Assembly: GCA_009927055.1 (NCBI GenBank)
Contig: RFNS01000106.1
Location: 1-43,907, forward strand
Direction: 5' to 3'
DNA: 43,907 nucleotides
Origin: Alphaproteobacteria bacterium
Lineage (GTDB): Bacteria; Pseudomonadota; Alphaproteobacteria; UBA9219; RFNS01
Both the position numbers and the translations under genes were made by a program. Position 1 is the first letter of the stretch; every line of letters starts with the position of its first letter. Positions 9,530 through 22,683 of the stretch are shown here, in pieces. Below the pieces are notes generated by a model that did not search any database, was not told the origin of the DNA, and saw only the letters and a list, made by a program, of their open reading frames with translations.

Positions 9530-9574
9530 TGGAGCGGGTGAAGGGAATCGAACCCTCATAGCCAGCTTGGAAGG
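9530..9574. repeat. att direct repeat (tRNA-Gly 3'-end remnant), left end
   Basis: TGGAGCGGGTGAAGGGAATCGAACCCTCATAGCCAGCTTGGAAGG, identical to 22639-22683. Confidence 0.95.
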
Positions 9575-9715
9575 ATTGTGGAAGAGAATCTGCGACCCGT
9601 CAAGATAGAAAATGAAATCAATTTATTATATTAAATATCAATAGTTTATGCCTTAATCATACTTTCACGCCACTGCACTCTTGCTTCCGAGAATCACCTG
9701 AAATACACTCGTATC

Positions 9716-9737
9716 TGCGACCTAGATGCGACCTAGA
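9716..9737 (+). promoter_or_regulatory. Candidate integrase arm-type sites, left end: two tandem TGCGACCTAGA
   Basis: TGCGACCTAGA at 9716-9726 and 9727-9737; the same motif pair with the same 11-bp period occurs at 22573-22594. Confidence 0.65.
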
Positions 9738-9746
9738 AGGTGAGGC

Positions 9747-11276
9747 ATGAAACACAAGCTGACAAAAAGCTACGTTGAAGGACTGCAACCCGCTGAGCGT
9801 GATTACCTTGTGCGGGATAGCGTACTACCTGGTTTCTTTGTGAAGATAACGCCGACCGGCAAGCGCGTGTACGGCCTTTATTACCGCACAGCGAACGGTA
9901 CAGAACGCAGGCCGTCCCTTGGCGAACATTCGCCGGGTTTCACGACCGATACAGCCCGCAAGAAAGCCGAGGAGTGGATTGGCCTGATCCGCAAGGACCA
10001 AGACCCCAGCAATGAACAGCAGCGCAAGCGCAAGGCTATATCGTTCAAGGAACTGGCGGGGCAGTATCTCGAAGAATATTCCCGCCACCATAAGACTCCG
10101 GAAACCGTCTTGAATGACGAATCAAATCTCAATAACCACCTGATCCCACTTCTGGGGCATTTGAAAGTGCCTGACATGGAAGCGACAGACATTGACCGAG
10201 CTATCCGTGCCATTGCCGACGGGAAAACAGCCAAGACCGAAAAGCTGGACAATGGCAGCCTGCGCCGTGTTCAAGGCGGTAAAGGTGCTGCAGCGCGGTG
10301 CTTGATCCTAATGAAACATATTATGGGAGCCTATGCCGAAAGCCGAGGCATCCGCCCGATGGGATCAAATCCCTGCCGCTATGTTAAAATGCCCGAAACC
10401 AAGTTTTCTAAGACTGGCCGCGCCCGGTTCCTGACCCCGAAGGAATTCGCCAAGCTGGGTGAATTGCTTGAAAAGCTGAAAACCGGACACGTTGCCCATA
10501 CCGTGACGCGCCGCGCCCTTTATGAAGAGATATGGACGATTTCAACAAAACAGGCGGCGGAAAATTACGGCCTGTCTGACCGTGGCTTAGCAAAAATCTG
10601 TGGGCGTTACGATATTCCGATTCCTGACCGGGGCGTATGGCAGAAATTCAAGGCCGGTAATGCAAAATTGAAAAAGCCGTTGCCGCTTTCACAGTATGCG
10701 CCGGAACAGGAAATTACGCTCCGCAGTCACGGCGTGAAAGTGGCAGGCGAGAACTCCGTTATCGTCAATGCGCTGGAACTGCTTCTGTTCACCGGGTGCA
10801 GAAAGAGTGAAATTTTAACTCTAAAATGGGAGTTTGTAGATTTTGACGCTCAATGCCTGCGCCTTCCAGAGAGCAAGACGGGCGCGAAAATCGTGCCACT
10901 GGGCGCGCCCGCTTTGCAGGTTATGGAAACGATCAAGCGTGAACCGAGGAATCCCTATGTCCTGCCGGGGAAAAAGCCGGGCCAGCATATCGCGGGAATT
11001 GATCTGGCATGGCAGCGCATCCGTTCGCAAATCGGTTTGGAGGACGTAACTATCCATGATCTACGCCGCTCTTTTGGCTCTGTCGGCGCCGCGCAGGGGC
11101 TTTCCCTGCTTATGATTGGCAAAGCGTTATCCCACAAATCCCAACGCGCCACGGCGGTTTACGCCCGCTTGCAGGATGATCATACGCGCCAGACAGTCGA
11201 TCTGATTTCAAATCAGGTCGCCGCATTCATGAATGCAGAAAAAGACAAACAGGCCAAGGTGGTGCCAATAAGATGA
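9747..11276 (+). CDS. int: Tyrosine recombinase/integrase (DUF4102 arm-binding type) with inserted HTH-like domain
   Basis: N-terminal DUF4102-like region (LPGFFVKITPTGKRVYGLYYR), catalytic TGCRKSEILTLKWE, HDLRRSFGS, LSHKSQRATAVYARL. Confidence 0.93.
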   Translation: MKHKLTKSYVEGLQPAERDYLVRDSVLPGFFVKITPTGKRVYGLYYRTANGTERRPSLGEHSPGFTTDTARKKAEEWIGLIRKDQDPSNEQQRKRKAISFKELAGQYLEEYSRHHKTPETVLNDESNLNNHLIPLLGHLKVPDMEATDIDRAIRAIADGKTAKTEKLDNGSLRRVQGGKGAAARCLILMKHIMGAYAESRGIRPMGSNPCRYVKMPETKFSKTGRARFLTPKEFAKLGELLEKLKTGHVAHTVTRRALYEEIWTISTKQAAENYGLSDRGLAKICGRYDIPIPDRGVWQKFKAGNAKLKKPLPLSQYAPEQEITLRSHGVKVAGENSVIVNALELLLFTGCRKSEILTLKWEFVDFDAQCLRLPESKTGAKIVPLGAPALQVMETIKREPRNPYVLPGKKPGQHIAGIDLAWQRIRSQIGLEDVTIHDLRRSFGSVGAAQGLSLLMIGKALSHKSQRATAVYARLQDDHTRQTVDLISNQVAAFMNAEKDKQAKVVPIR

Positions 11277-11713
11277 CAGAACAAACAGCCAAGAAACATT
11301 TAGCCCAGAAGCACTTTGACAGGCGGGTCGAAAAACTCGGGGAAAAGGCGTTGAAAATAATCAATGGCCGTTACCATACGCAGAATCGCACTCGCGACAC
11401 ATTACACCACTTATACAAAGAGGGGGTTTATGCCGAGAATGTCGCTCTTACTGAAGAGGCCTACGACAATCAGCTTTTTTCACGTGAGTGGTTATATTTA
11501 CAGCGTATTTTGTCTGACCCACCCTATTACATGACAAAAGAGCACAACAAAAGAAAGGTGGGCATTCTTATTGCCACCAACGGTATCACGGAGAATCTAA
11601 CAAAACAAAAAATCGCGAAGCGAGCAGGAACGAACCGACAAAACCTAAAGCGCTGGGAAAATGACCTCTTTCATAAAGAAGTTTATGGGATTTTTTGGGG
11701 CGATAAAAAATAA
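11273..11713 (+). CDS. Hypothetical protein, possibly HTH-containing
   Basis: ATGA overlap with int; C-terminal LTKQKIAKRAGTNRQNLKRWENDLF resembles a helix-turn-helix. Confidence 0.6.
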   Translation: MTEQTAKKHLAQKHFDRRVEKLGEKALKIINGRYHTQNRTRDTLHHLYKEGVYAENVALTEEAYDNQLFSREWLYLQRILSDPPYYMTKEHNKRKVGILIATNGITENLTKQKIAKRAGTNRQNLKRWENDLFHKEVYGIFWGDKK

Positions 11714-11736
11714 GTGCCAATGTGGAGAACTAAAAA

Positions 11737-11970
11737 ATGACGCAAGGATTCAAAGGGCTGTCCTTACAAGCTTATCAGCCGCTGTACAGCGTAGCCGAAA
11801 CGCTTGCTCTGATAAAAATAGGCCGAACGAAGTTTTACAAAGAAATTGCCCAGGGCCGCATTAAGGTCGTTAAATGTGGGCAGAAAACGCTTGTTACAGG
11901 GCAAGCCATACAAGATTGGATTGAAGCACTCCCGAGAGTCCCATCAAAAACCCAACAAAACTCTAATTGA
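11737..11970 (+). CDS. Excisionase/AlpA-like HTH protein
   Basis: YSVAETLALIKIGRTKFYKEIAQGRIKVVKCGQKTLVTGQAIQDWIEAL matches the small HTH_17/AlpA/Xis pattern. Confidence 0.75.
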   Translation: MTQGFKGLSLQAYQPLYSVAETLALIKIGRTKFYKEIAQGRIKVVKCGQKTLVTGQAIQDWIEALPRVPSKTQQNSN

Positions 11971-12379
11971 CCAATACATTCAGCTTTGCCCTACTTTCCA
12001 GGACAAATTGTTCCAGCTCTTCTGCCGTCATGTTCAATGGGTCTTTTTCCAATAGCGGCGTATCCTCGTCAGCTCTTTTGAAAAACCCTGCGGCTTCCAA
12101 AACAGCGCGTGACGCCGCAACCTTGGCGTTGGCGGGGGATTTGGGATTCTGCATCACATCTTTGAGCGTTCCGAAGGCGATACTGGTCAAGTCCCCGTTC
12201 AAAAGCGCCTGTTGTTCTGCACGGATGGCGCGAGCGATATTAGGCTTGCGAAGTAACTCATATCCGCGCTGGCGAGGATGTGCATAACCAGCGTTTTCTG
12301 CCGCTTTGGACGCGCTACACCGCTCGCGGACAAGGTAACGCACGAATTCCTTTTGTATGTCTGAAAGATCATTATTCAC
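11963..12379 (-). CDS. Phage terminase small subunit (TerS)-like protein; GTG start chosen at 12379, ORF track extends to a TTG at 12418
   Basis: LSDIQKEFVRYLVRERCSASKAAENAGYAHPRQRGYELLRKPNIARAIRAEQQA follows the Terminase_2 N-terminal HTH pattern. Confidence 0.75.
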   Translation of the reverse strand: MNNDLSDIQKEFVRYLVRERCSASKAAENAGYAHPRQRGYELLRKPNIARAIRAEQQALLNGDLTSIAFGTLKDVMQNPKSPANAKVAASRAVLEAAGFFKRADEDTPLLEKDPLNMTAEELEQFVLESRAKLNVLVN

Positions 12380-12382
12380 GGC

Positions 12383-12396
12383 GGTATTATAATACC
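12383..12396. promoter_or_regulatory. 14-bp perfect palindrome upstream of the terS-like start
   Basis: GGTATTATAATACC. Confidence 0.5.
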
Positions 12397-12405
12397 ACAA
12401 TAAAG

Positions 12406-12469
12406 GCTGGAACAACAACTGTACTATTGTAAATTAAGCTGGAACAACAACTGTACTATTGTAAATTAA
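12406..12469. repeat. Two perfect contiguous 32-bp tandem repeats
   Basis: GCTGGAACAACAACTGTACTATTGTAAATTAA at 12406-12437 and 12438-12469. Confidence 0.95.
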
Positions 12470-12570
12470 AGCGTCTAGTCTGGCTAACCTGTCTCGCTAG
12501 GTTCTATAGATTTTCTATACCTCATGCCCTATAGTTCTTTATCTTTTTTTATATTCTTATAAAAGCCAGA

Positions 12571-15153
12571 CTATATAGACTCCTCGGACGGATAATCAGG
12601 TTCCTCCCACGGAACCGCACCACCGATATACTTTTCAAACATCGCGCGCGCCGCATCTAAAGGAGCGAAACGATACCCATATGGTCTTTGACCTTCTGCG
12701 GTTGTAAGCCTGGGCTTTTGAAGAGCTTCCTCTAAAATAGTTTGCAATGTTTTTGAGAACTGCCCCACATCAACCGGACGATACTCACCATTGATCTTAT
12801 AACTTTCTGCATAGGAGTTATAAGCGTCAGTTTTCCGGATTTGTAAGGGTTGATTTCTGAGCCACGGTTGATGGGCCATTACACCAATTTGCAAGCAATG
12901 ATATAACCAAGCATCTGGCCCTCGGAGTGAACGAAGCTTTTGGTGCGTCAAGGCTCCAGTTTGAGGCACTTTGCGCACATTAAAATTTGAGAGATCATAG
13001 TTCAGAAGATCGTGTAGCATGGCCTCCGTGCCGCCACTGTCGATTTCCTTGTAAAGCGCTGCGAAGTATTCAGTGTTTTGCTTTTTTTCTTCGGAAACAT
13101 CGATAACGCAAAAGCGCCGTTCATCATGACCTGCTGGGATAATCCAGTTTTCATTAGAGGCCATCATAAGATGAATGTTATTTTTGGCCATAATTGCGTC
13201 TTTATATTTTCCTTCAACCAGTATATGTGGATCGGTGATAAGCCCTTTCAAAACGCTTTCGTGCGATTTATCACCCGCAAAAACGGCTTCATCGGCAAAG
13301 AGTAAAACAGCATCGCGCAAATGCGCATTAAAATTTCCGATCAAATGTTTTGCGTTCGTAATATACACATAATGTTGACCGAAAATCTTTCCGAATAAGT
13401 GAGCAAAGGTTCCTTTTCCTGTCCCCCGTCCTCCACGCAGAATTATTGCCACTTCACCCGGCTTATCAGGGTGCTGCACGGCTCTTGCCATCCAACCCAT
13501 CATATAATCAAACAACTCTTTGTTTTCCGAACAAATAACATCAAGTATGTGATTTTTTATTAAGTCCCAAGAACCGTGCGCCGGTGTTACGCCCCAACCG
13601 CGCCATAAATTGAACTGATCGGCACTCACGGTTTTACACGGAGAAAATACAACTCCGCCCAGATATTGGCGCCGTTTAGGATGGCTCAACCACGCTCTTG
13701 ATTTTGACAAAGGTTTTTCTTTGCCATTTGGAAGAGGCAAATAATCATTCATATACATTCTGTTGAAATCATCAAATTTAATGCGCTCTAAAACTTCTCG
13801 TTTTATCGCTTCATCAACATAGGGGCGAAATACGAAAACCTTTCCGCCTTCATTAACAATCATGAATTTTTCATTCATCTCCTGCACGTAATCGGGAATA
13901 TAGTCATTGCGCTCTTGTTTTGAGCGGAAATAGTATTTTATGCCGCCGTGCGCGTGAGAAAAAATCAGCGGCTCCGTGCAATTTTTGAGATAAGCGACAG
14001 CAATGCGAGTATCATTGCCGCCATAACCCGGCTCAAAAGGGTCTGCAAACCGTTTTTCATGCCATTCATTAGGATTAGCTCTAACCTGTGCAACGGAAAC
14101 TTTAGAACCATCATGGCACCTCAAAATCAGTTCATCTGGCAAAACATCACCTTCCACAAGTGCGCGGCGCAAGGATTCCTTGCATTTTTTTAGTTCTTCT
14201 TCAGTAGCCTTCTTGCCGACAAATTCCTTGGCCCGTTTTGCAATCCACTTCTCACGCCTGGACGCCGCTTCTAGTTTCTTTTCTTCGCGGGCATCGTCAA
14301 TCATACGGGCTAAATTTACCGTTTCCTCAGGCGTTAACGGACGCAAGTCATCGGCATTAATCTGTTGTTCTCCACCGCACAACAATTCCAGCTTCGCAGG
14401 GAAGATTTCCGGTTCCGGGAAACGCTGTTCAAGCCTGTCTTTGCACACCGCACCACCGAAAGCGAACCTTTCCGGTTGCCAAACCGCAGTATCGACGATG
14501 CTTCTTTCCAGCAAATTACCGTTTTCCGCTATGCGGATATATCCGTAACCAGCCAACCATAGGCGGCTATAAATAAGCTTTCCTATTTCAGGTATACGGC
14601 TAGCATCGCTGCAAACCATAAAGGCGTGCAAGCCCTTAATTCCAGAAATCTGAATTTCGCCGTCATAAATACAACTTGACGTGCTAGGCTTCACTCCGAT
14701 CGTTACTTGATTCAATTCAGGCATGGCCATACGGAGAATTTGTACGAACTCTTCAGCTGTAAGTGCTTCTTTACCCAGCTGTGGGTCATAATCTAAAAAA
14801 ATAACCCCTGGCTTTTTTGCCCAGGTAAAGTTTTCACGAGTACGGCTGATAACGCCCCTATACCTCGTACTGGCCTTTAACTTTGCTTCGCAAAGAACAT
14901 AATCGGCTTTGGTTTTTTGAACCCCAAATGCTACCGCCTCATGGAATGGCAAGCGGCACATAAATTGAAGTAAGGATTTCAGGTCGCGTAACTGTTCTTG
15001 CCTTATTTTTCCAGATATTAGATTAGCCCCGACTGTTTTCTTAATTTTCCTGTTTTTATCGAGGGATATGATTTTTGTTAGAGACTGTTTACTGTCATTG
15101 GTAATAACAGTAACTGTAAAATGAGTTTCTGTTGTTTTCTTAGCATTCAACAT
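12571..15153 (-). CDS. Primase-helicase (SF3/D5-like helicase, DUF5906-type)
   Basis: AIILRGGRGTGKGTFAHLFGKIFG Walker A; DAVLLFADEAVFAG Walker B; HLMMASNENWIIPAGHDERRFCVIDVS sensor region; long N-terminal primase-like region. Confidence 0.85.
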   Translation of the reverse strand: MLNAKKTTETHFTVTVITNDSKQSLTKIISLDKNRKIKKTVGANLISGKIRQEQLRDLKSLLQFMCRLPFHEAVAFGVQKTKADYVLCEAKLKASTRYRGVISRTRENFTWAKKPGVIFLDYDPQLGKEALTAEEFVQILRMAMPELNQVTIGVKPSTSSCIYDGEIQISGIKGLHAFMVCSDASRIPEIGKLIYSRLWLAGYGYIRIAENGNLLERSIVDTAVWQPERFAFGGAVCKDRLEQRFPEPEIFPAKLELLCGGEQQINADDLRPLTPEETVNLARMIDDAREEKKLEAASRREKWIAKRAKEFVGKKATEEELKKCKESLRRALVEGDVLPDELILRCHDGSKVSVAQVRANPNEWHEKRFADPFEPGYGGNDTRIAVAYLKNCTEPLIFSHAHGGIKYYFRSKQERNDYIPDYVQEMNEKFMIVNEGGKVFVFRPYVDEAIKREVLERIKFDDFNRMYMNDYLPLPNGKEKPLSKSRAWLSHPKRRQYLGGVVFSPCKTVSADQFNLWRGWGVTPAHGSWDLIKNHILDVICSENKELFDYMMGWMARAVQHPDKPGEVAIILRGGRGTGKGTFAHLFGKIFGQHYVYITNAKHLIGNFNAHLRDAVLLFADEAVFAGDKSHESVLKGLITDPHILVEGKYKDAIMAKNNIHLMMASNENWIIPAGHDERRFCVIDVSEEKKQNTEYFAALYKEIDSGGTEAMLHDLLNYDLSNFNVRKVPQTGALTHQKLRSLRGPDAWLYHCLQIGVMAHQPWLRNQPLQIRKTDAYNSYAESYKINGEYRPVDVGQFSKTLQTILEEALQKPRLTTAEGQRPYGYRFAPLDAARAMFEKYIGGAVPWEEPDYPSEESI

Positions 15154-15164
15154 GGCAAGTCCTT

Positions 15165-15380
15165 TCAGGCTTTTACCGTGCTGTAGCGCTCATTCTCGCT
15201 GATAAACTTCTCTAAAGCCACAATCTTGTAACGCACAGCACCACCAAGGCGTACGAAAGAAGGCCCCCGCCCGGATACACGCCAATTCTCTAAAGTTCTT
15301 TTCTCGATGCGTAGAAACTCTGCTGCTTCCAACGTGGTCAGAAGACTGTTGCCCAACATTTCTCTCGATTTCTTGTCCAT
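15165..15380 (-). CDS. AlpA/MerR-like HTH DNA-binding protein
   Basis: LLTTLEAAEFLRIEKRTLENWRVSGRGPSFVRLGGAVRYKIVALEKFI is the helix_turn_helix_17 pattern; directly upstream of the primase gene. Confidence 0.88.
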   Translation of the reverse strand: MDKKSREMLGNSLLTTLEAAEFLRIEKRTLENWRVSGRGPSFVRLGGAVRYKIVALEKFISENERYSTVKA

Positions 15381-15525
15381 CTCGCGACTTCCCGTGCAGT
15401 TGAAGTGATTAGGGCGAGCTTACATGCAGGATGGAGAGGTTACGACGAACAAGGCGCACCACGAAATGTTACATTTAGAGACTTTGAGTTGTTTGTTTCC
15501 AAGAAATTATGCTATTAATCGCCTT

Positions 15526-15711
15526 GTACATGACAAAATGTCATGTACGGGGCTTTTCATCCCCATCAAGTGCGGCAAAGACACTGCCGGAAGTGTGTCG
15601 CCCTCAGCTATGGCTGGGTGGCGATGTCATGTCCAAGCGCAAGCCAAAAGCATCGCGCCGTTTCACTTGATACGGATGAAAACACCCAGTCACCAGAGCG
15701 ATCTGGTGACT
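15526..15711 (+). ncRNA. Candidate structured RNA of three abutting helical modules
   Basis: H1 GTACATGACA-AAA-TGTCATGTAC (15526-15548); H2 long stem GGG/CCC + TTTTCATCC/GGATGAAAA + ATCAAGTG/CACTTGAT (15549-15687) enclosing further hairpins; H3 AGTCACCAGA-GCGA-TCTGGTGACT (15688-15711). Transcription not demonstrated. Confidence 0.55.
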
Positions 15712-15734
15712 GATTTTCGGCATGGAGATCAGGC

Positions 15735-16160
15735 ATGGAATATCAATATCAGATCCAAAAAGATTTACGCGATTTGCGCGTTTTTAGAAATTGCTTGGTT
15801 GGGCAGCTTACTGAACTTGCGTTAACCTTATGGTGTAATAAAACAGAAAATATTAAGAATAGAGATAGAAAAAAGCTTGAAGATGAAATTCAAAAAATTA
15901 AGGCACTATATGAAGACATTTCTGTAGTCATTTTTGCATTAGAAAACCATCATCGGGATTCGCATCTAATTTTTGAAAAAACTGAGATGGAAGCCAAAAT
16001 AGAATACGAAAGACGACAAAGATATTTTGACCAATGGCTCACAGAGCAAACCGGTCCTCTTCCCCAAAATTATGCTAACTTAATTAACTCATTATTTAAT
16101 GAGATTCATTCTATAAATGAAAATCTTGTAAAAATTGTCTCTAAGAAATGCACGCGATAA
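15735..16160 (+). CDS. Hypothetical coiled-coil-like protein
   Basis: 141-aa AT-rich ORF rich in charged helix (KLEDEIQKIKALYEDISVVIFALE; FEKTEMEAKIEYERRQRYFDQWL); downstream of the structured segment. Confidence 0.55.
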   Translation: MEYQYQIQKDLRDLRVFRNCLVGQLTELALTLWCNKTENIKNRDRKKLEDEIQKIKALYEDISVVIFALENHHRDSHLIFEKTEMEAKIEYERRQRYFDQWLTEQTGPLPQNYANLINSLFNEIHSINENLVKIVSKKCTR

Positions 16161-16231
16161 CGTGACTGCAATTGAGCAATAGAATTACTCAGACCTATTG
16201 ACCGATCTAGCTTAAGGAACAGGCTCAATAA

Positions 16232-17908
16232 TCACTCGATGCCGAGCTTGCTGAAGAATATCTTGTTACGCATCTCTGCATCACGCAACAGCTTCGTCCA
16301 GCTCAGCACTTCGATGTAGAGATTTATCTTGTCATACCAGTTGAACCAGCCTTGTCCATCCGGCATGGGGGTAAAATTCTTCTCGCGTAAAAGCCAGTCC
16401 GCAATTTTCTTGGGTATGTCGCAAACTACATAACCGTAGAACGGCGTCTTATCATTCACAAGAATGTCGCGCCCTTTTGGCGTTTTATATTCTCCGTCAC
16501 GAATTTGATTAACGTATCGCACGATCTGGGCAATCGGGTCTTCGTCAGAAGACAGATTTGCAAAGTCATGTCGCTGTGGTTTTTTAAATTCAAAAATTGT
16601 GATCGGGTTGCTGAGTTCATTATCTCCACGATAGGCGATTTTCTTGTTAAAGATCGTAATATCCGTTCTATCGCTTTTGTTGCCGTTGATTGGTTTATCC
16701 GATGATATGAATTCTGCAAAATTTAGCCGTTCATCAAGAATCCACAGGTTATGCGCCGAATAATCGATTTCATCGGAATCTTTCTTCCGTGGCATAATCA
16801 GATCATGCACGTCGCCCTCTGATTTATATTTTCCCGATTCATCGATTTCTAGAAATTTCCCGAATATGTCGAGCGCGCACTTGCGCGTTGAGACGTAATG
16901 AATCAGGTCGTTTTTGCTGGTTTCTGAAATGCTCTCGATGACTTGAGCTATTTTTCCATCCATCTCAGTGGTGGGTTCTGCGTTTAGGATGGCTTCCACC
17001 TGAGCGCGCGTTTGCACCTCCTTCTCGAATTTCTTGCGCTGAAGGTGCAGCTCTATTTCTTGATCGCTCGGCCGCATGGGAAGGGCGCTGAAATCCGCTT
17101 CCGTGCTAATTTTTCTATGCCAAGGTGCCTGCGATGAAATGTAGTCCGAGATTCTGGCGGCTTTACGCTGTTTGCGGTCGGCAATGTCACTGCCGACTGC
17201 GGCCTCTGCAATGCCCGCCGCTGTTTTCTCGATCTGGTTTTGTGAGATACCATTGAGAAGATCGGAATCAGCCTGGAAGCGGAATTCGCCACGCTCCAAC
17301 GAAACATTATCATTAAGATAGTCGCCAAAGACGTAAGCCTTAATGACAAAGTTTCGGCCTCTTGCCGGATTACCGCTTGGGTCAGGCTCATAGAACTCTT
17401 CTGCAAACTCTGGGATATAATCATGCAGATTGACACTCGTTACCTCGCGCCTGTGAGCAACCAGGCTGATTTTGCTTCGCTCAGTCTTCGGCGAGTAGAA
17501 TTTGAAAATGCGCACCAAAAATTCACGCGGCAGGCCGTGGGCCTGAAGTGAGAAGGTACCATTTTCTATCGGTATTTCGACAATCTGGCTGTCCTTCTTG
17601 CCAAGGTAATCGTTCAAATATGCCGGCAATCCTGATGCACTTGCATCTCGAATGGCTATCTTGGGGCAAGGTTTATCGGCGTCCACAAAGTAAGGCAGCA
17701 GGCGTTCCACGATGACGCGGCTGATAATGTCGATTCCCTTATCTGGAAATTTGACTGCCCTGATGCCAGAAATTTCAATTTTTGATCCGGTGTCGATTAT
17801 GGCTGTTTCATTGATATGCTCATCAATGATGATGTCCTCATCCAAGCCCATCCTGAATGTTCGTTCTTTATAATTTTCGCCGTCTGCAAAAATGCTGCTG
17901 ATTTTCAC
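16232..17908 (-). CDS. Restriction-associated protein with C-terminal PD-(D/E)XK-like region; appears to lack a GHKL ATPase module
   Basis: C-terminus DRTDITIFNKKIAYRGDNELSNPITIFEFKKPQRHDF...DPIAQIVRYVNQIR (D...E-x-K); GTG start 14 nt after the upstream restriction-modification gene stop. Confidence 0.6.
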   Translation of the reverse strand: MKISSIFADGENYKERTFRMGLDEDIIIDEHINETAIIDTGSKIEISGIRAVKFPDKGIDIISRVIVERLLPYFVDADKPCPKIAIRDASASGLPAYLNDYLGKKDSQIVEIPIENGTFSLQAHGLPREFLVRIFKFYSPKTERSKISLVAHRREVTSVNLHDYIPEFAEEFYEPDPSGNPARGRNFVIKAYVFGDYLNDNVSLERGEFRFQADSDLLNGISQNQIEKTAAGIAEAAVGSDIADRKQRKAARISDYISSQAPWHRKISTEADFSALPMRPSDQEIELHLQRKKFEKEVQTRAQVEAILNAEPTTEMDGKIAQVIESISETSKNDLIHYVSTRKCALDIFGKFLEIDESGKYKSEGDVHDLIMPRKKDSDEIDYSAHNLWILDERLNFAEFISSDKPINGNKSDRTDITIFNKKIAYRGDNELSNPITIFEFKKPQRHDFANLSSDEDPIAQIVRYVNQIRDGEYKTPKGRDILVNDKTPFYGYVVCDIPKKIADWLLREKNFTPMPDGQGWFNWYDKINLYIEVLSWTKLLRDAEMRNKIFFSKLGIE

Positions 17909-17922
17909 GTCGTCAAAATACT

Positions 17923-20900
17923 TTAGGCAAGTGAAGCGCCCAGCATGTCTTCCTGTTGATTGTCTTCCTCAGCTTCTTCCTCGTTAAAAAAATAACGAGC
18001 CAGACATAACCCATTTGAGTGCATTGCATACTCTGGGAGAGCGTCTGTCATTAATGCAGAAAATTCTAATCCTGTTCCAGGGCCATTTAATACGATACAG
18101 AGATTTCTTCTCCCAGAATAAGGAAAAATTTTTGGCATTTGATAGACACAGTTATTAAAGTGTCTATCAAAATAGGCCCATTGCTTAGAAAAGGGTCTAT
18201 ATGCACTTACTACAATATGCTTTTGATGGAATACACCCCTTCTACCAGCTTTCACGCTTGCAAAAGTCTCCCGTGTCCACTTCATCTTCGCTTCATTCTT
18301 ATCAACGATACCTTCAGGATCTGGTCGATTCTGTCGAGATGGGTATCTCGATTGATAATTTTCTAGCTCAATGTTGTAGTGAGCAATCATACGCTCCATA
18401 TTTGAACTTACTTCAACCTTTGATGAGTTATAGCACCATGGATCTCGGTTAGTTTTGATGCCACTCGATATATCGGTAAATAGTGTCACCGACAAAGTAT
18501 CATCCTTGGTAGCAGCAGCTATAAATTTCTCGAAAGACACATCTCGTTGTGCCACCCAATCGCCATGTTCGTTTGGGTTTATGGTGCGCCAGCAGTTCTT
18601 GCTGTTGATCCCTTCAATGCTGCCAAAATTTGTGATGATGGCCAGCTTTTGTTCGCGCGTCAGATAGTCGCCGATGTCATGGAAGCGGATAATACCATGC
18701 TCAGCCGCGTTTGGGTTTTTTACCAAAACTGTAATCGCAATAGGCGACCGACTGCCCTGCTCAAATACATTGTCTTTCTCTTTGCGTCGAATTTCACCTT
18801 TAGTTCTGGCGTTGCCCCGCAGGTGAAAAACGTGGATGTTTGTAAACTCATCCGCCAAGCTCTTGCGGAATCCATCAAAAGAGTTTCCGTTGATCCATCC
18901 AGCACCAGATACAAAGGCAACAACACCTTGTTGACCAATTCGATCGCTAGCCCAGCGGTAAGCGCGAACATAGCTATTAAACAGGCTATTTTGAAGCCCA
19001 GCGTTACTTAGTGCTCCATAAGTGCAACGAATGCGATTATCGAGTTTTGGATATTCAAGATTTTGAGCATCATCGTTTCCACTCTCCTGCCCCTCGGAAT
19101 AGGGTGGATTGCCAAAAATAACGCGAATATCCAGCTTGCGCTGCCGCTTCCGGCGGGCGCTGTTATCAGGCATAAGATCGCTGATAAGATCGCGTTCCTG
19201 CTCGTAAAGCTGGAAGGTATCGGTCAGACAGATGCCGTCGAACGGGACATATTTGCCGCCGGCCAGGCCGTGATAAGCGGCCTCGATGTTGATGGCGGCG
19301 ATGTAGTAGGCCAGCAGCACGATCTCATTGGCATGAATCTCATGCTGATATTTATGCGCCAGCTCGTCCGGCTTGATAAGGCCAGATTGCAAGAGGCGCG
19401 TGATAAAAGTGCCGGTGCCGGTGAAGGGGTCAAGAATGTGAACACCCTTGCTGCCCAAAGTCTGGCCGAATTCGCTTTGCAGCACTTCGTTGACGGAATG
19501 GATGATAAAGTCCACCACTTCAACAGGCGTATAGACGATGCCAAGGCGCTCGGTCATTTGCGGAAAAGCATTGCGGAAAAATTTGTCGTAAAGCTCGACA
19601 ATGATTTTTTGTTTGGACTGCGCATTATCGATACCAGTGGCGCGCCGCTTCACGCTCTCATAGAACTTCTGAAGGCTCTCGGATTCCTTTTCCAAGTTGT
19701 GTTCGTCCAGCTTGTCGAGAACGATCTGCATCGCACGTGAAACGGGATTATTTTTGGCAAAGCTATAGCCCTCGAACAGCGCCTCGAATACGGGGCGCGT
19801 GATGATATGCTGCGCCAGCATCTCGATGGCCTCGGCATCGGTGATACTATCATTCAGGTCGTCTTTTATTTCTGCCAGGAAGGCGTCGAATGCAGCGCGC
19901 TCCGGTGTGCCGTGTTTCTGCACCAATGCGGTGATGCGAGTGATGTGGGTCTGGGCGATTTTGGCAATATCAGCCGCCCAATCTTCCCAATAGTCGCGCC
20001 GGCCGCATTTCTTGACGATTTTGGCCATGATGGCTTTGGAAAATTCGTCAAAAGCAAAGCGGGTCTGAAACGGCGCAGCCGGTTTGCCGGTGTCAGGATC
20101 GCGTTCATCGTCATCGCCTGAGGCGTGGCCCTGGCCGATATTGGGGCCGGTGCCTTTATTCTCTTTGCGGGGCGGCAACTTGTTGCTGACGGCGATAACC
20201 TCGATGTGGTCGGATACGTCCACACCAAGATCGGCCTTGTTTATCATGGCGTCGAAGCGTTCATCGTGTGAGCGCAAGGCATTCAAAATCTGCCAAACGA
20301 CGCGGTAGCGGTCGTTGTCGTTCAAGGCGTCTTCCGGCGTCACGCCGGCAGGAACGCCGATAGGCAGGATCACATAACCCATGTTTTTGTCTTTGGCACG
20401 GCGCATGACGCGACCAACAGACTGCACCACGTCTATCTGTGAGCGGCGTGGGTGCATGAAGAGGATCGCGTCCAGGGCGGGAACGTCCACGCCCTCGGAC
20501 AAGCAGCGGGCATTGGTGAGGATGCGGCAAGCATGGTCGCTATGTTCATCCTTCAACCAATTCAGTAGTCGGTCGCGGGATTTGGCGTTGAAAGTGCCGT
20601 CCACATGCTCCAACTGGCAATCGAGCGGCAAGGCGTCGCCCTCAGCTTCCTTACCCTCGTCGGATGCCAGATATTCGGAAACGACGGCGGCGAATTCCTC
20701 CTGGATCATTTTCGATGTGGCAATGTCCTTGCAGAAGGCCAGGGCGCGCTTCATCGGCTGCGGATCGGTCAGCAGATCGTTTTTCAAGCCATGCTTGGCA
20801 AGAGCCTTGTAGCAGCCGATAATTTTGGTGGCGTCGTCCAGCTTCAGCTCGGATTTGTCGGCCAGGCGTTTTTGAACGCCGGTGCTGACCATCTGCTCGT

Positions 20901-22158
20901 CCACGGCCAGAACCAAAACCTTATAATCCGTCAGCAGCTTGTTTTCGACGGCCCAACCGAAACCACGGGCGAAAAGCGTTTCGCCGAAATAAGCCTCATT
21001 GTCCATGTCGTAAAGCACGGCGGATGCTTCGGTGGCCTTCGCGCGCACGGCCTCACCGAACACTTTGGGCGTGGCTGTCATATAGACACGCTTCTTGCCG
21101 GCAATCACCTTCTGGTCGTGAACCTTGACGAAATTGCTATCGTCCGCACCGTCTAGGGTCGCGCCGGTCGTGCGGTGCGCCTCGTCACAGATAATCAGGT
21201 CGAATTCTGGCAAGCCGTGCTTCTTTTGAGCGTCGGCAATCACCTGGATTGATTGATAGGTGGCAAAGATCACCGTCATTTGCTCGCCGGCCGACCGCTT
21301 GGCACTCGCGGCCAGCTTGGCGGCGTCAGTCGTCGCGGGGAATGCTAGGTCGAGGAAGTCGATCTCGGCCACGTCATCGGCATTCGCGCGCCGCTTCCCG
21401 ACTTGGGTATCAGAACAGACGGCAAAAGAGCGCAGCGGTGTTTGACTATCGGCCGTCCATTCGCGCACGGTTTGCGACATAAGGGCCAGGGATGGCACGA
21501 GGAAGAGAACGGTGCCGCCGGCTCCGATCAAGTCTTCCGCAATCTTTAGACTGGTGAAGGTTTTACCTGTGCCGCAAGCCATGATGAGCTTGCCACGATC
21601 CGCTGTTTCCAGTCCTTTGCGAACGGCCGCAACAGCATCCTTCTGGTGCGGCAATAGGGTTTTCTTTTTACTGAGAACGATCTCGCCCTTGGCGGCGAAG
21701 CGTTCCCATTGGATCGAGCTGGCTTCAAGGTCGGCAAGGCTCAAGCGCGTGGTGATGATCGCTTGGCCGCGCAACATGGTTTCAGCGTTTTCACTCCACG
21801 GCACGTCTGTGGTGTCGATGATAACGCGGCGCTTGAATGGTTCCTTGGCTGAGGCTGATATGCAGCTATCGATGTCAGCCTTCTGAATGCGGTATTTAGG
21901 GTCATAGAATTTGCATTGGATTGCGGCGAAGCCGTCCTCGCCGCGCAACTTGGCAACAAGATCAATGCCGGTATCTCGCCCGTCCCATCCGTGCGCAGCC
22001 GCCCAATCCTTATAGGTTTGTACAGCTTCATACTGTTGAATCTGAACGGGGTCATTAATGAGATAAGCCACGGCCAGGCGTTCAAAATACGTCCCCTTGT
22101 CGCGCTCGGTGCGCGCCACTTCACGGTATGAATTCAACAGTTCTCTGAGCGCAGTCAT
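17923..22158 (-). CDS. Type ISP-like single-chain restriction-modification enzyme (Mrr-like nuclease, SF2 translocase, N6-adenine methyltransferase, target recognition region)
   Basis: DTGIDLVAKLRGEDGFAAIQCKF (Mrr-type nuclease); ACGTGKT and DEAH helicase motifs; VQSVGRVMRR; DPFTGTGTFITRLL (AdoMet) and GNPPY (motif IV); 1411 aa. Confidence 0.9.
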   Translation of the reverse strand: MTALRELLNSYREVARTERDKGTYFERLAVAYLINDPVQIQQYEAVQTYKDWAAAHGWDGRDTGIDLVAKLRGEDGFAAIQCKFYDPKYRIQKADIDSCISASAKEPFKRRVIIDTTDVPWSENAETMLRGQAIITTRLSLADLEASSIQWERFAAKGEIVLSKKKTLLPHQKDAVAAVRKGLETADRGKLIMACGTGKTFTSLKIAEDLIGAGGTVLFLVPSLALMSQTVREWTADSQTPLRSFAVCSDTQVGKRRANADDVAEIDFLDLAFPATTDAAKLAASAKRSAGEQMTVIFATYQSIQVIADAQKKHGLPEFDLIICDEAHRTTGATLDGADDSNFVKVHDQKVIAGKKRVYMTATPKVFGEAVRAKATEASAVLYDMDNEAYFGETLFARGFGWAVENKLLTDYKVLVLAVDEQMVSTGVQKRLADKSELKLDDATKIIGCYKALAKHGLKNDLLTDPQPMKRALAFCKDIATSKMIQEEFAAVVSEYLASDEGKEAEGDALPLDCQLEHVDGTFNAKSRDRLLNWLKDEHSDHACRILTNARCLSEGVDVPALDAILFMHPRRSQIDVVQSVGRVMRRAKDKNMGYVILPIGVPAGVTPEDALNDNDRYRVVWQILNALRSHDERFDAMINKADLGVDVSDHIEVIAVSNKLPPRKENKGTGPNIGQGHASGDDDERDPDTGKPAAPFQTRFAFDEFSKAIMAKIVKKCGRRDYWEDWAADIAKIAQTHITRITALVQKHGTPERAAFDAFLAEIKDDLNDSITDAEAIEMLAQHIITRPVFEALFEGYSFAKNNPVSRAMQIVLDKLDEHNLEKESESLQKFYESVKRRATGIDNAQSKQKIIVELYDKFFRNAFPQMTERLGIVYTPVEVVDFIIHSVNEVLQSEFGQTLGSKGVHILDPFTGTGTFITRLLQSGLIKPDELAHKYQHEIHANEIVLLAYYIAAINIEAAYHGLAGGKYVPFDGICLTDTFQLYEQERDLISDLMPDNSARRKRQRKLDIRVIFGNPPYSEGQESGNDDAQNLEYPKLDNRIRCTYGALSNAGLQNSLFNSYVRAYRWASDRIGQQGVVAFVSGAGWINGNSFDGFRKSLADEFTNIHVFHLRGNARTKGEIRRKEKDNVFEQGSRSPIAITVLVKNPNAAEHGIIRFHDIGDYLTREQKLAIITNFGSIEGINSKNCWRTINPNEHGDWVAQRDVSFEKFIAAATKDDTLSVTLFTDISSGIKTNRDPWCYNSSKVEVSSNMERMIAHYNIELENYQSRYPSRQNRPDPEGIVDKNEAKMKWTRETFASVKAGRRGVFHQKHIVVSAYRPFSKQWAYFDRHFNNCVYQMPKIFPYSGRRNLCIVLNGPGTGLEFSALMTDALPEYAMHSNGLCLARYFFNEEEAEEDNQQEDMLGASLA

Positions 22159-22457
22159 GGGTCTTTTGTTCCTCTTATTCTAAATCATGGCAACGCATCC
22201 AGGTTGTTTTGCCAGAATCGTGGTACCCATAGTGTCTTTTTTAGCTCTTGATCTACCATGTCAGCCCCAATCAGATTTTCCTGATTTTTTATAGCGGGCT
22301 GGAGCGGTTATATAAAGGGTTAATGCCTGTTCGTTAATAAATACTCTGTCCGCTCGAACAGATGTCACCCTTCACTTACTTACTCAATAGACAGACACCC
22401 AATCAAAACAGGTACCTACATTTTGTGGGAACGTGATTTCAAAATACCACAAATTTT

Positions 22458-22510
22458 GTACGGCCGTACGATAGCGTTTCGGAATCCAAGAAGGGGTATA
22501 CCCCTAGGGG
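22458..22510. promoter_or_regulatory. Cluster of perfect palindromes in the right-end intergenic region
   Basis: GTACGGCCGTAC (22458-22469), GGGGTATACCCC (22493-22504), CCCCTAGGGG (22501-22510). Confidence 0.5.
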
Positions 22511-22572
22511 TGGGATGGGTACCAAAACAGGAAAGCAAAATCAGAAGAAATTTGACAGACGGATTGATTTAT

Positions 22573-22594
22573 TGCGACCTATTTGCGACCTAGA
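22573..22594 (+). promoter_or_regulatory. Candidate integrase arm-type sites, right end: TGCGACCTA x2 with 11-bp period
   Basis: TGCGACCTATT (22573) followed by TGCGACCTAGA (22584); mirrors 9716-9737. Confidence 0.65.
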
Positions 22595-22638
22595 GAAAGA
22601 GCGTGAGTTCATAAAATCATCTAAGCCATTGAAATCGT

Positions 22639-22683
22639 TGGAGCGGGTGAAGGGAATCGAACCCTCATAGCCAGCTTGGAAGG
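22639..22683. repeat. att direct repeat within tRNA-Gly, right end
   Basis: Identical 45 bp to 9530-9574. Confidence 0.95.

Follow-up and report, generated by a model that had tools for sequence, protein, structure and literature searches.

A predicted leader RNA with several pseudoknots in an alphaproteobacterial integrative island, and its relation to sRNA-Xcc1

What is the 186-nt intergenic segment at 15526–15711 of the window (the whole 43,907-nt stretch of alphaproteobacterial DNA analysed here), which lies between an AlpA-like gene and a gene for a 141-aa protein, and which a first-pass annotation made from the letters proposed to be a new structured RNA? Its surroundings, listed with the other features in Table 1, are those of an integrative island that also carries two orphan genes and whose right-hand 45-bp repeat lies inside a tRNA-Gly. 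Judged from its genes the island is a P4-like island or satellite, with integration at a tRNA site, an integrase, an AlpA-type regulator and a P4-type primase; the primase scores below the cut-off of the P4-type primase model TIGR01613. Family and homologue searches with the 141-aa protein found none, searches of viral contigs with this protein and with the primase gave no match, and the AlphaFold model of the 141-aa protein is a four-helix structure of low confidence (pLDDT 69). The minimum free energy of the segment is −94.2 kcal/mol, whereas dinucleotide shuffles lie at −53.7 ± 4.4 kcal/mol and none of 200 reached so low a value (z = −9.2), in agreement with the folding that the annotation had predicted, and the helices that it named are present in the fold at their positions. 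The reverse complement folds equally well (z = −8.9), so folding energy alone carries no strand information for this segment, and the RNA is placed on the plus strand from gene context. A promoter scan made no call on that strand.

Do homologues preserve the pairing? A plain MAFFT alignment of 27 relatives including the window was scored against a proposed structure of 47 pairs in eight helices, pseudoknots included. In this alignment 86% of the cells pair and 36 of the 47 pairs change on both sides; both-side changes number 204 cells compared with 67 in shuffles (0/500), and the signal is lost when the partners are slid by one to three columns. The compensatory changes by which the annotation had asked to be judged are therefore there. 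The helices of this structure are Px (GGGG/CCYC, with a loop that forms the P1a strand), P1a, P1b, PK1, P3 with its cap P3b, and b/b', which abuts P1; the window copy keeps P0, Px, P1, PK1, P3 and b/b' intact. A second alignment held 92 distinct sequences and was made with a model that lacked Px, S2 and b/b', and here these same elements covary again (16 of 18 pairs, 208 cells versus 72). From this comparison we conclude that the segment is, as predicted from its relatives, a folded RNA that belongs to a widespread, barely described class of leader RNAs in bacteria.

Table 1. Elements of the predicted leader RNA and of the island that carries it (window coordinates).
Feature	Position	Strand	Remarks and basis
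Integrative island carrying the RNA, ~13.1 kb	9530..22683	.	45-bp direct repeats 9530-74 and 22639-83
Integrase	9747-11276		Phage_integrase domain
Primase	12571-15153		DUF5906/VapE-like domains
AlpA-like	15165-15380		HTH_17
P0 hairpin (first named H1)	15526..15548	+	10 bp, AAA loop; fold; adjoins core in 59% of homologues
Px, GGGG 15549-52/CCCC 15561-64	15549..15564	+	Loop contains P1a 5' strand; covariation
P1 5' strand: P1a 15554-62, P1b 15565-72	15554..15572	+	Partner 15664-82; P1a and P1b covary
PK1, H-type pseudoknot	15573..15599	+	S2 covaries in 5/5 pairs
P4 local hairpin	15599..15623	+	Competitor of b/b' and P3; fold; weak covariation
b, 5' strand of b/b' pseudoknot, TGGCTGGGTG	15611..15620	+	Covariation
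P3 with conserved internal loop (ATGTCCAA.../AAA), cap P3b 15637-44	15621..15656	+	6/8 P3 pairs covary; presumed sensing site
P1 3' strand: P1b 15664-71, P1a 15674-82	15664..15682	+	Covariation
b', 3' strand of pseudoknot, CACCCAGTCA	15683..15692	+	Overlaps H3 at 15688-92; covariation, fold
H3 terminator-like hairpin, 11 bp, GCGA loop, then ATTTTCGG	15687..15712	+	Fold; homologue hairpins
Small hairpin pairing Shine-Dalgarno GGAG (15724-27)	15712..15730	+	Fold
141-aa orphan gene, presumed leader target	15735..16160	+	No family or homologue
Type ISP restriction enzyme, 1411 aa	17923-22158		

The covariation also revises several helices of the first-pass annotation. The inner parts of its long helix H2 stand and correspond to P1a and P1b, but the outermost step, GGG 15549–51 with CCC 15685–87, is not a set of covarying pairs; the G-run covaries instead with the C-run of Px, and CCC 15685–87 is a pseudoknot strand. 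The helix given as ACACT/AGTGT is a real pairing, which proves to be one half of the H-type pseudoknot PK1 (S1, CGGCA 15573–77 with TGCCG 15585–89; S2, GACAC 15580–84 with GTGTC 15595–99) rather than a simple hairpin. The pairing of CGCCCTCAGC with GCTGGGTGGCG is present in the fold as the local hairpin P4, which competes with the b/b' pseudoknot and in which only 4 of 11 pairs covary; P4 was considered as the off-state and rejected for this poor covariation. H1 belongs to a conserved kind of hairpin, found in 59% of homologues against 1.8% of mononucleotide shuffles, and a hairpin like H3 stands at the same place in half of the homologues, without conservation of the GCGA loop that had drawn attention to it. 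In the window H3 (−20.1 kcal/mol) and b/b' (−16.6 kcal/mol) have AGTCA in common and are partly mutually exclusive; a consensus scan did not call H3 a plus-strand terminator, and its T tract is short. The helices P1 and b/b' tolerate complete sequence change while pairing is kept, and the P3 loop keeps its sequence itself, which is why we take that internal loop as the putative sensing site; the exact-pattern search described below selected for this loop, and the model searches carried no such requirement.

Is this RNA already known under another name? A scan of the window with Rfam found tRNA only, with sRNA-Xcc1 (RF02221) unmatched at its gathering threshold of 53 bits, and a permissive search of 15400–15800 (E up to 5) gave nothing relevant, neither RF02221 nor C4 (RF01695) nor isrK (RF01394). 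By blastn against the 33 genomes of the window's order, three relatives were recovered outside the window's own genome. Two of the three match sRNA-Xcc1 below the cut-off (39 and 35 bits); in the window's relatives such sub-threshold matches, of 30–39 bits, lie at the right place. When RF02221 was searched through the order it marked about 48 places in 20 genomes, two of them with many copies, and these have one common architecture. An exact-pattern scan for the core added members on contigs of Sphingomonadaceae, Phenylobacterium, Caulobacter, Hyphomicrobium and Bradyrhizobium, on Magnetococcales, Legionellales and Bilophila contigs and on IMG/VR contigs; part of its matches were coding sequence and were removed by hand before modelling. 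The covariance model R1 was then built from the 27 relatives, without Rfam sequences and with the window among its training sequences.

Within the order, 24 of the 33 genomes have R1 matches, with as many as 25 in a single genome; the corresponding figures are 23 of 142 genomes for the class and 40 of 249 for the phylum, and the RNA occurs on viral contigs and Ti plasmids as well. The window, itself a training sequence, scores 103.5 bits and is the one R1 match of its genome; a second, weak RF02221 match there (32.2 bits, G000:C78:46304-46391, locus L046) has no R1 match. Applied to loci from 30 genomes with strong RF02221 matches, R1 matched 26 of 30 over the whole model (E up to 0.01), and several of these sRNA-Xcc1 loci were places that R1 had already found independently. 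Because a model built without Rfam sequences matches these loci end to end, RF02221 corresponds, by this homology, to the 3' half of this RNA. The homology covers the core (b, P3, P3b, the P1 3' strand and b'), whereas RF02221 covers the 3' 87 positions only and lacks P0, Px, P1, PK1 and the relation of the b/b' pseudoknot to P1. The P3 internal loop comes in two forms, AUGUCCAA...AAA in type I, to which the window belongs, and AAUACAAUA...AAUA in type II, the RF02221 consensus, and it is this difference of subtype that makes Rfam miss the window. The class has so far been known through sRNA-Xcc1, and the window RNA is one of the type I representatives of this class. The novelty first claimed for it thus falls for the 3' half, which is homologous to RF02221, and stands for the full architecture, the core subtype of the window and the leader role, which are absent from Rfam and from the searchable papers; compared with the earlier claim the structure is stronger and the name is less new.

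Cloning and mapping showed sRNA-Xcc1 to be an 88-nt RNA in Xanthomonas (PMC2996969), where it lies upstream of symE in integron cassettes (PMC12444791); all seven homologues in Xylella are transcribed and five are clustered, and C4, isrK and sRNA-Xcc1 are direct neighbours in another Xylella strain (PMC12189769). TraM, whose gene is considered below, is reduced when hfq is mutated in A. tumefaciens (PMC4201532). The full RNA and a leader function are described in none of these four papers, and a search of the available papers found no link of sRNA-Xcc1 to leader control or to traM.

Several individual copies may be described here. The closest relative of the window RNA, in another genus (L006:7985-8134, ~80% identical), has no H3-like hairpin and no clear co-directional gene downstream, and is possibly a decayed copy. 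A viral contig (L051:138-886) carries three tandem copies with 297-nt spacing, which may be compared with the five-copy sRNA-Xcc1 cluster in a Xylella genomic island (PMC12189769), and at five further loci (L074, L080, L087, L150 and L251) the RNA, or its P3 core, occurs twice within a few kilobases. In two genomes, G005 with 25 places and G025 with 16, families of short secreted proteins follow the RNA (e.g., L017-L032 and L034-L039), long adhesin- or tail-fibre-like proteins often come next, and the arrangement is seen near many contig ends; these copies are possibly a dispersed gene family that moves together with its leader. A DNA search of plasmid and phage collections with the window segment gave no match. 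Many enterobacterial plasmid matches of one other query proved to be a 27-nt match, several within an IS1182-family transposase, and were rejected as not being the RNA.

What does the RNA stand in front of? Of 155 loci, 128 have a start codon on the same strand no more than 65 nt beyond the RNA, where start codons in unannotated loci were picked by a simple score devised for this analysis; annotated plasmid records agree, with gene starts ~47–62 nt past the RNA. The downstream proteins fall into 86 clusters and include P22_AR_N and Bro-N antirepressors, HEPN/nucleotidyltransferase proteins, a DNA methylase, a PD-(D/E)XK nuclease, HTH, GGDEF and acyltransferase proteins and many orphans; some sRNA-Xcc1-type members precede Rha-, P22_AR_N-, KilA-N- and SymE-like proteins, as judged from the sequences by eye. 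On pTiBo542 and pTiC58 the annotated gene after the RNA encodes the TraM repressor, and on other plasmids HTH regulators and small proteins follow it. The traM gene product is the quorum-sensing antiactivator of Ti plasmid conjugation. The traM leader copies lie at L254:4956-5110 (pTiC58) and L252:1936-2086 (pTiBo542); a 241-base query that includes the traM leader matched 341 plasmid records, and leaders related to that of traM lie on hundreds of rhizobial plasmid records.

This arrangement bears on several explanations. An RNA that precedes dozens of unrelated proteins is unlikely to be a partner of the 141-aa protein, as had been suggested. The further suggestion of a hairpin DNA origin, or of a recombination site of the island, would suit the nearby AlpA-like and primase genes and the good folding of both strands, but we find it scarcely credible for an element that a single genome may carry up to 25 times in front of unrelated genes, with a fixed orientation relative to those genes and with alternative pairing partners that are Shine-Dalgarno regions (below), in an island whose att repeats are elsewhere. 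Earlier papers, as cited in PMC12444791 and PMC12189769, treat sRNA-Xcc1 as a trans-acting sRNA, which would make each locus an independent sRNA gene with an incidental upstream position; the RNA keeps one place and one direction immediately ahead of start codons and co-varies with the Shine-Dalgarno region at its own locus, which leaves this very improbable.

The pairing with Shine-Dalgarno regions was measured as follows. The end of P1 together with b' matches the Shine-Dalgarno region of its own locus with a mean score of 15.3, compared with 13.4 ± 0.25 for other loci (z = 7.7, 0/5000 permutations), and the match holds in short- and long-spacer loci separately; near-duplicates were dropped before the permutation, which does not entirely remove relatedness. 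In sRNA-Xcc1-type members the pre-ATG sequence often nearly repeats the P1 5' strand, except that the Shine-Dalgarno sequence replaces the internal loop, and pairing of the P1 3' strand with it is stronger than in permuted loci (−18.8 versus −13.7 ± 0.6 kcal/mol, 0/5000). The same test was negative in type I long-spacer loci (350/5000), and the idea that this pairing occurs in all members was dropped, since it holds only for the sRNA-Xcc1-type group. A terminator-like hairpin whose 5' arm overlaps b' accompanies 63% of the long-spacer loci, often with a T-rich tail, and 10% of the short-spacer ones, compared with 1.7% of shuffles. Comparison reveals, class-wide, a contiguous 3' segment (the P1 3' strand plus b') that is complementary both to the core and to its own Shine-Dalgarno region, and, at most long-spacer loci, a terminator-like hairpin overlapping b'. 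These would be two interchangeable outputs on one core, as is typical of leader switches, and the class looks built for switching genes on and off.

We consider it probable that the 141-aa gene has this segment as its 5' leader and that the segment acts in cis as a switch, in a cis-regulatory class with multiple pseudoknots of which sRNA-Xcc1 is a fragment. With the core folded, P1 and b/b' would be formed, the 3' segment occupied and the gene expressed; with the core unfolded, b' would be free, H3 and the hairpin over GGAG would form and expression would stop. A small molecule or a protein that binds the conserved P3 internal loop would choose between these states. The least certain part is the off-state of the window itself, which is weakly supported because b' has no match to its own Shine-Dalgarno region, the match of the P1 3' strand to the pre-ATG sequence is average (rank 21 of 101) and the T tract of H3 is short.

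How does such a leader compare with known RNAs? In the P4 CI and P1/P7 C4 RNAs one segment is complementary to upstream and downstream segments near a phage gene start. The first-pass annotation had pointed to P4 CI in proposing a structured regulatory RNA, and that proposal is supported by the abundant compensatory changes, by the plus strand taken from gene context and by a similar logic of dual complementarity in the 3' segment, which is clear in sRNA-Xcc1-type members and weak in the window. The window has no sequence match to these RNAs (C4, RF01695), and the class differs from them in a larger conserved core with pseudoknots and in far more diverse downstream genes. isrK (RF01394) is similar as a leader-type RNA of prophage genes and as the neighbour of sRNA-Xcc1 in Xylella (PMC12189769), but it has no match to the window.

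The main rival of a cis-acting switch is an antisense RNA of the C4/P4 CI kind: rather than sensing a signal in cis, the leader could be processed to a stable sRNA, like the 88-nt sRNA-Xcc1, that acts in trans on the leader it came from or on those of sister copies, serving perhaps as the island's immunity RNA. Accumulation of sRNA-Xcc1 at that length (PMC2996969) would agree with it, as would the complementarity of the sRNA-Xcc1-type P1 3' strand to both an upstream segment and the pre-ATG region, the resemblance of several downstream genes to phage antirepressors, the adjacency of C4, isrK and sRNA-Xcc1 in one Xylella strain (PMC12189769) and the P4-type primase of the window's island. Specific antisense pairing does not, however, require a P3 loop conserved across unrelated genes; the pairing segments differ among copies of one genome, the window's genome has one R1 match without strong complementarity to its own gene start, and the C4 and isrK models do not match. 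On balance we regard antisense action as unlikely.

The cis-acting switch resembles riboswitches in its conserved core with an unpaired loop, its variable covarying stems and its strand exchange into a terminator-like hairpin or a ribosome-binding site, and across the class the 5' leader contains a conserved, covarying core whose strands can pair alternatively to form an expression platform. It differs from them in that the downstream genes have no common pathway and suggest no ligand candidate; Rfam riboswitch models have no match in the window. That the class is an undescribed and very widespread riboswitch-like sensor, with the AUGUCCAA/AAA and AAUACAAUA/AAUA subtypes binding different cellular signals and gating accessory and mobile genes that range from phage antirepressors and SymE-like proteins to traM, is a possible but still doubtful extension.

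sRNA-Xcc1, a small RNA family without a known function, is here recast as half of a larger, covariation-supported leader RNA, and the question of its role gets a concrete, testable answer. Dozens of accessory genes that are unrelated to one another have this predicted leader in front of them; they belong to Alphaproteobacteria, magnetotactic bacteria, phages and conjugative plasmids, and the quorum-sensing gene traM of pTiC58 is among them. If one cellular signal is sensed, the same signal would gate conjugation, lysogeny and many surface and defence genes.
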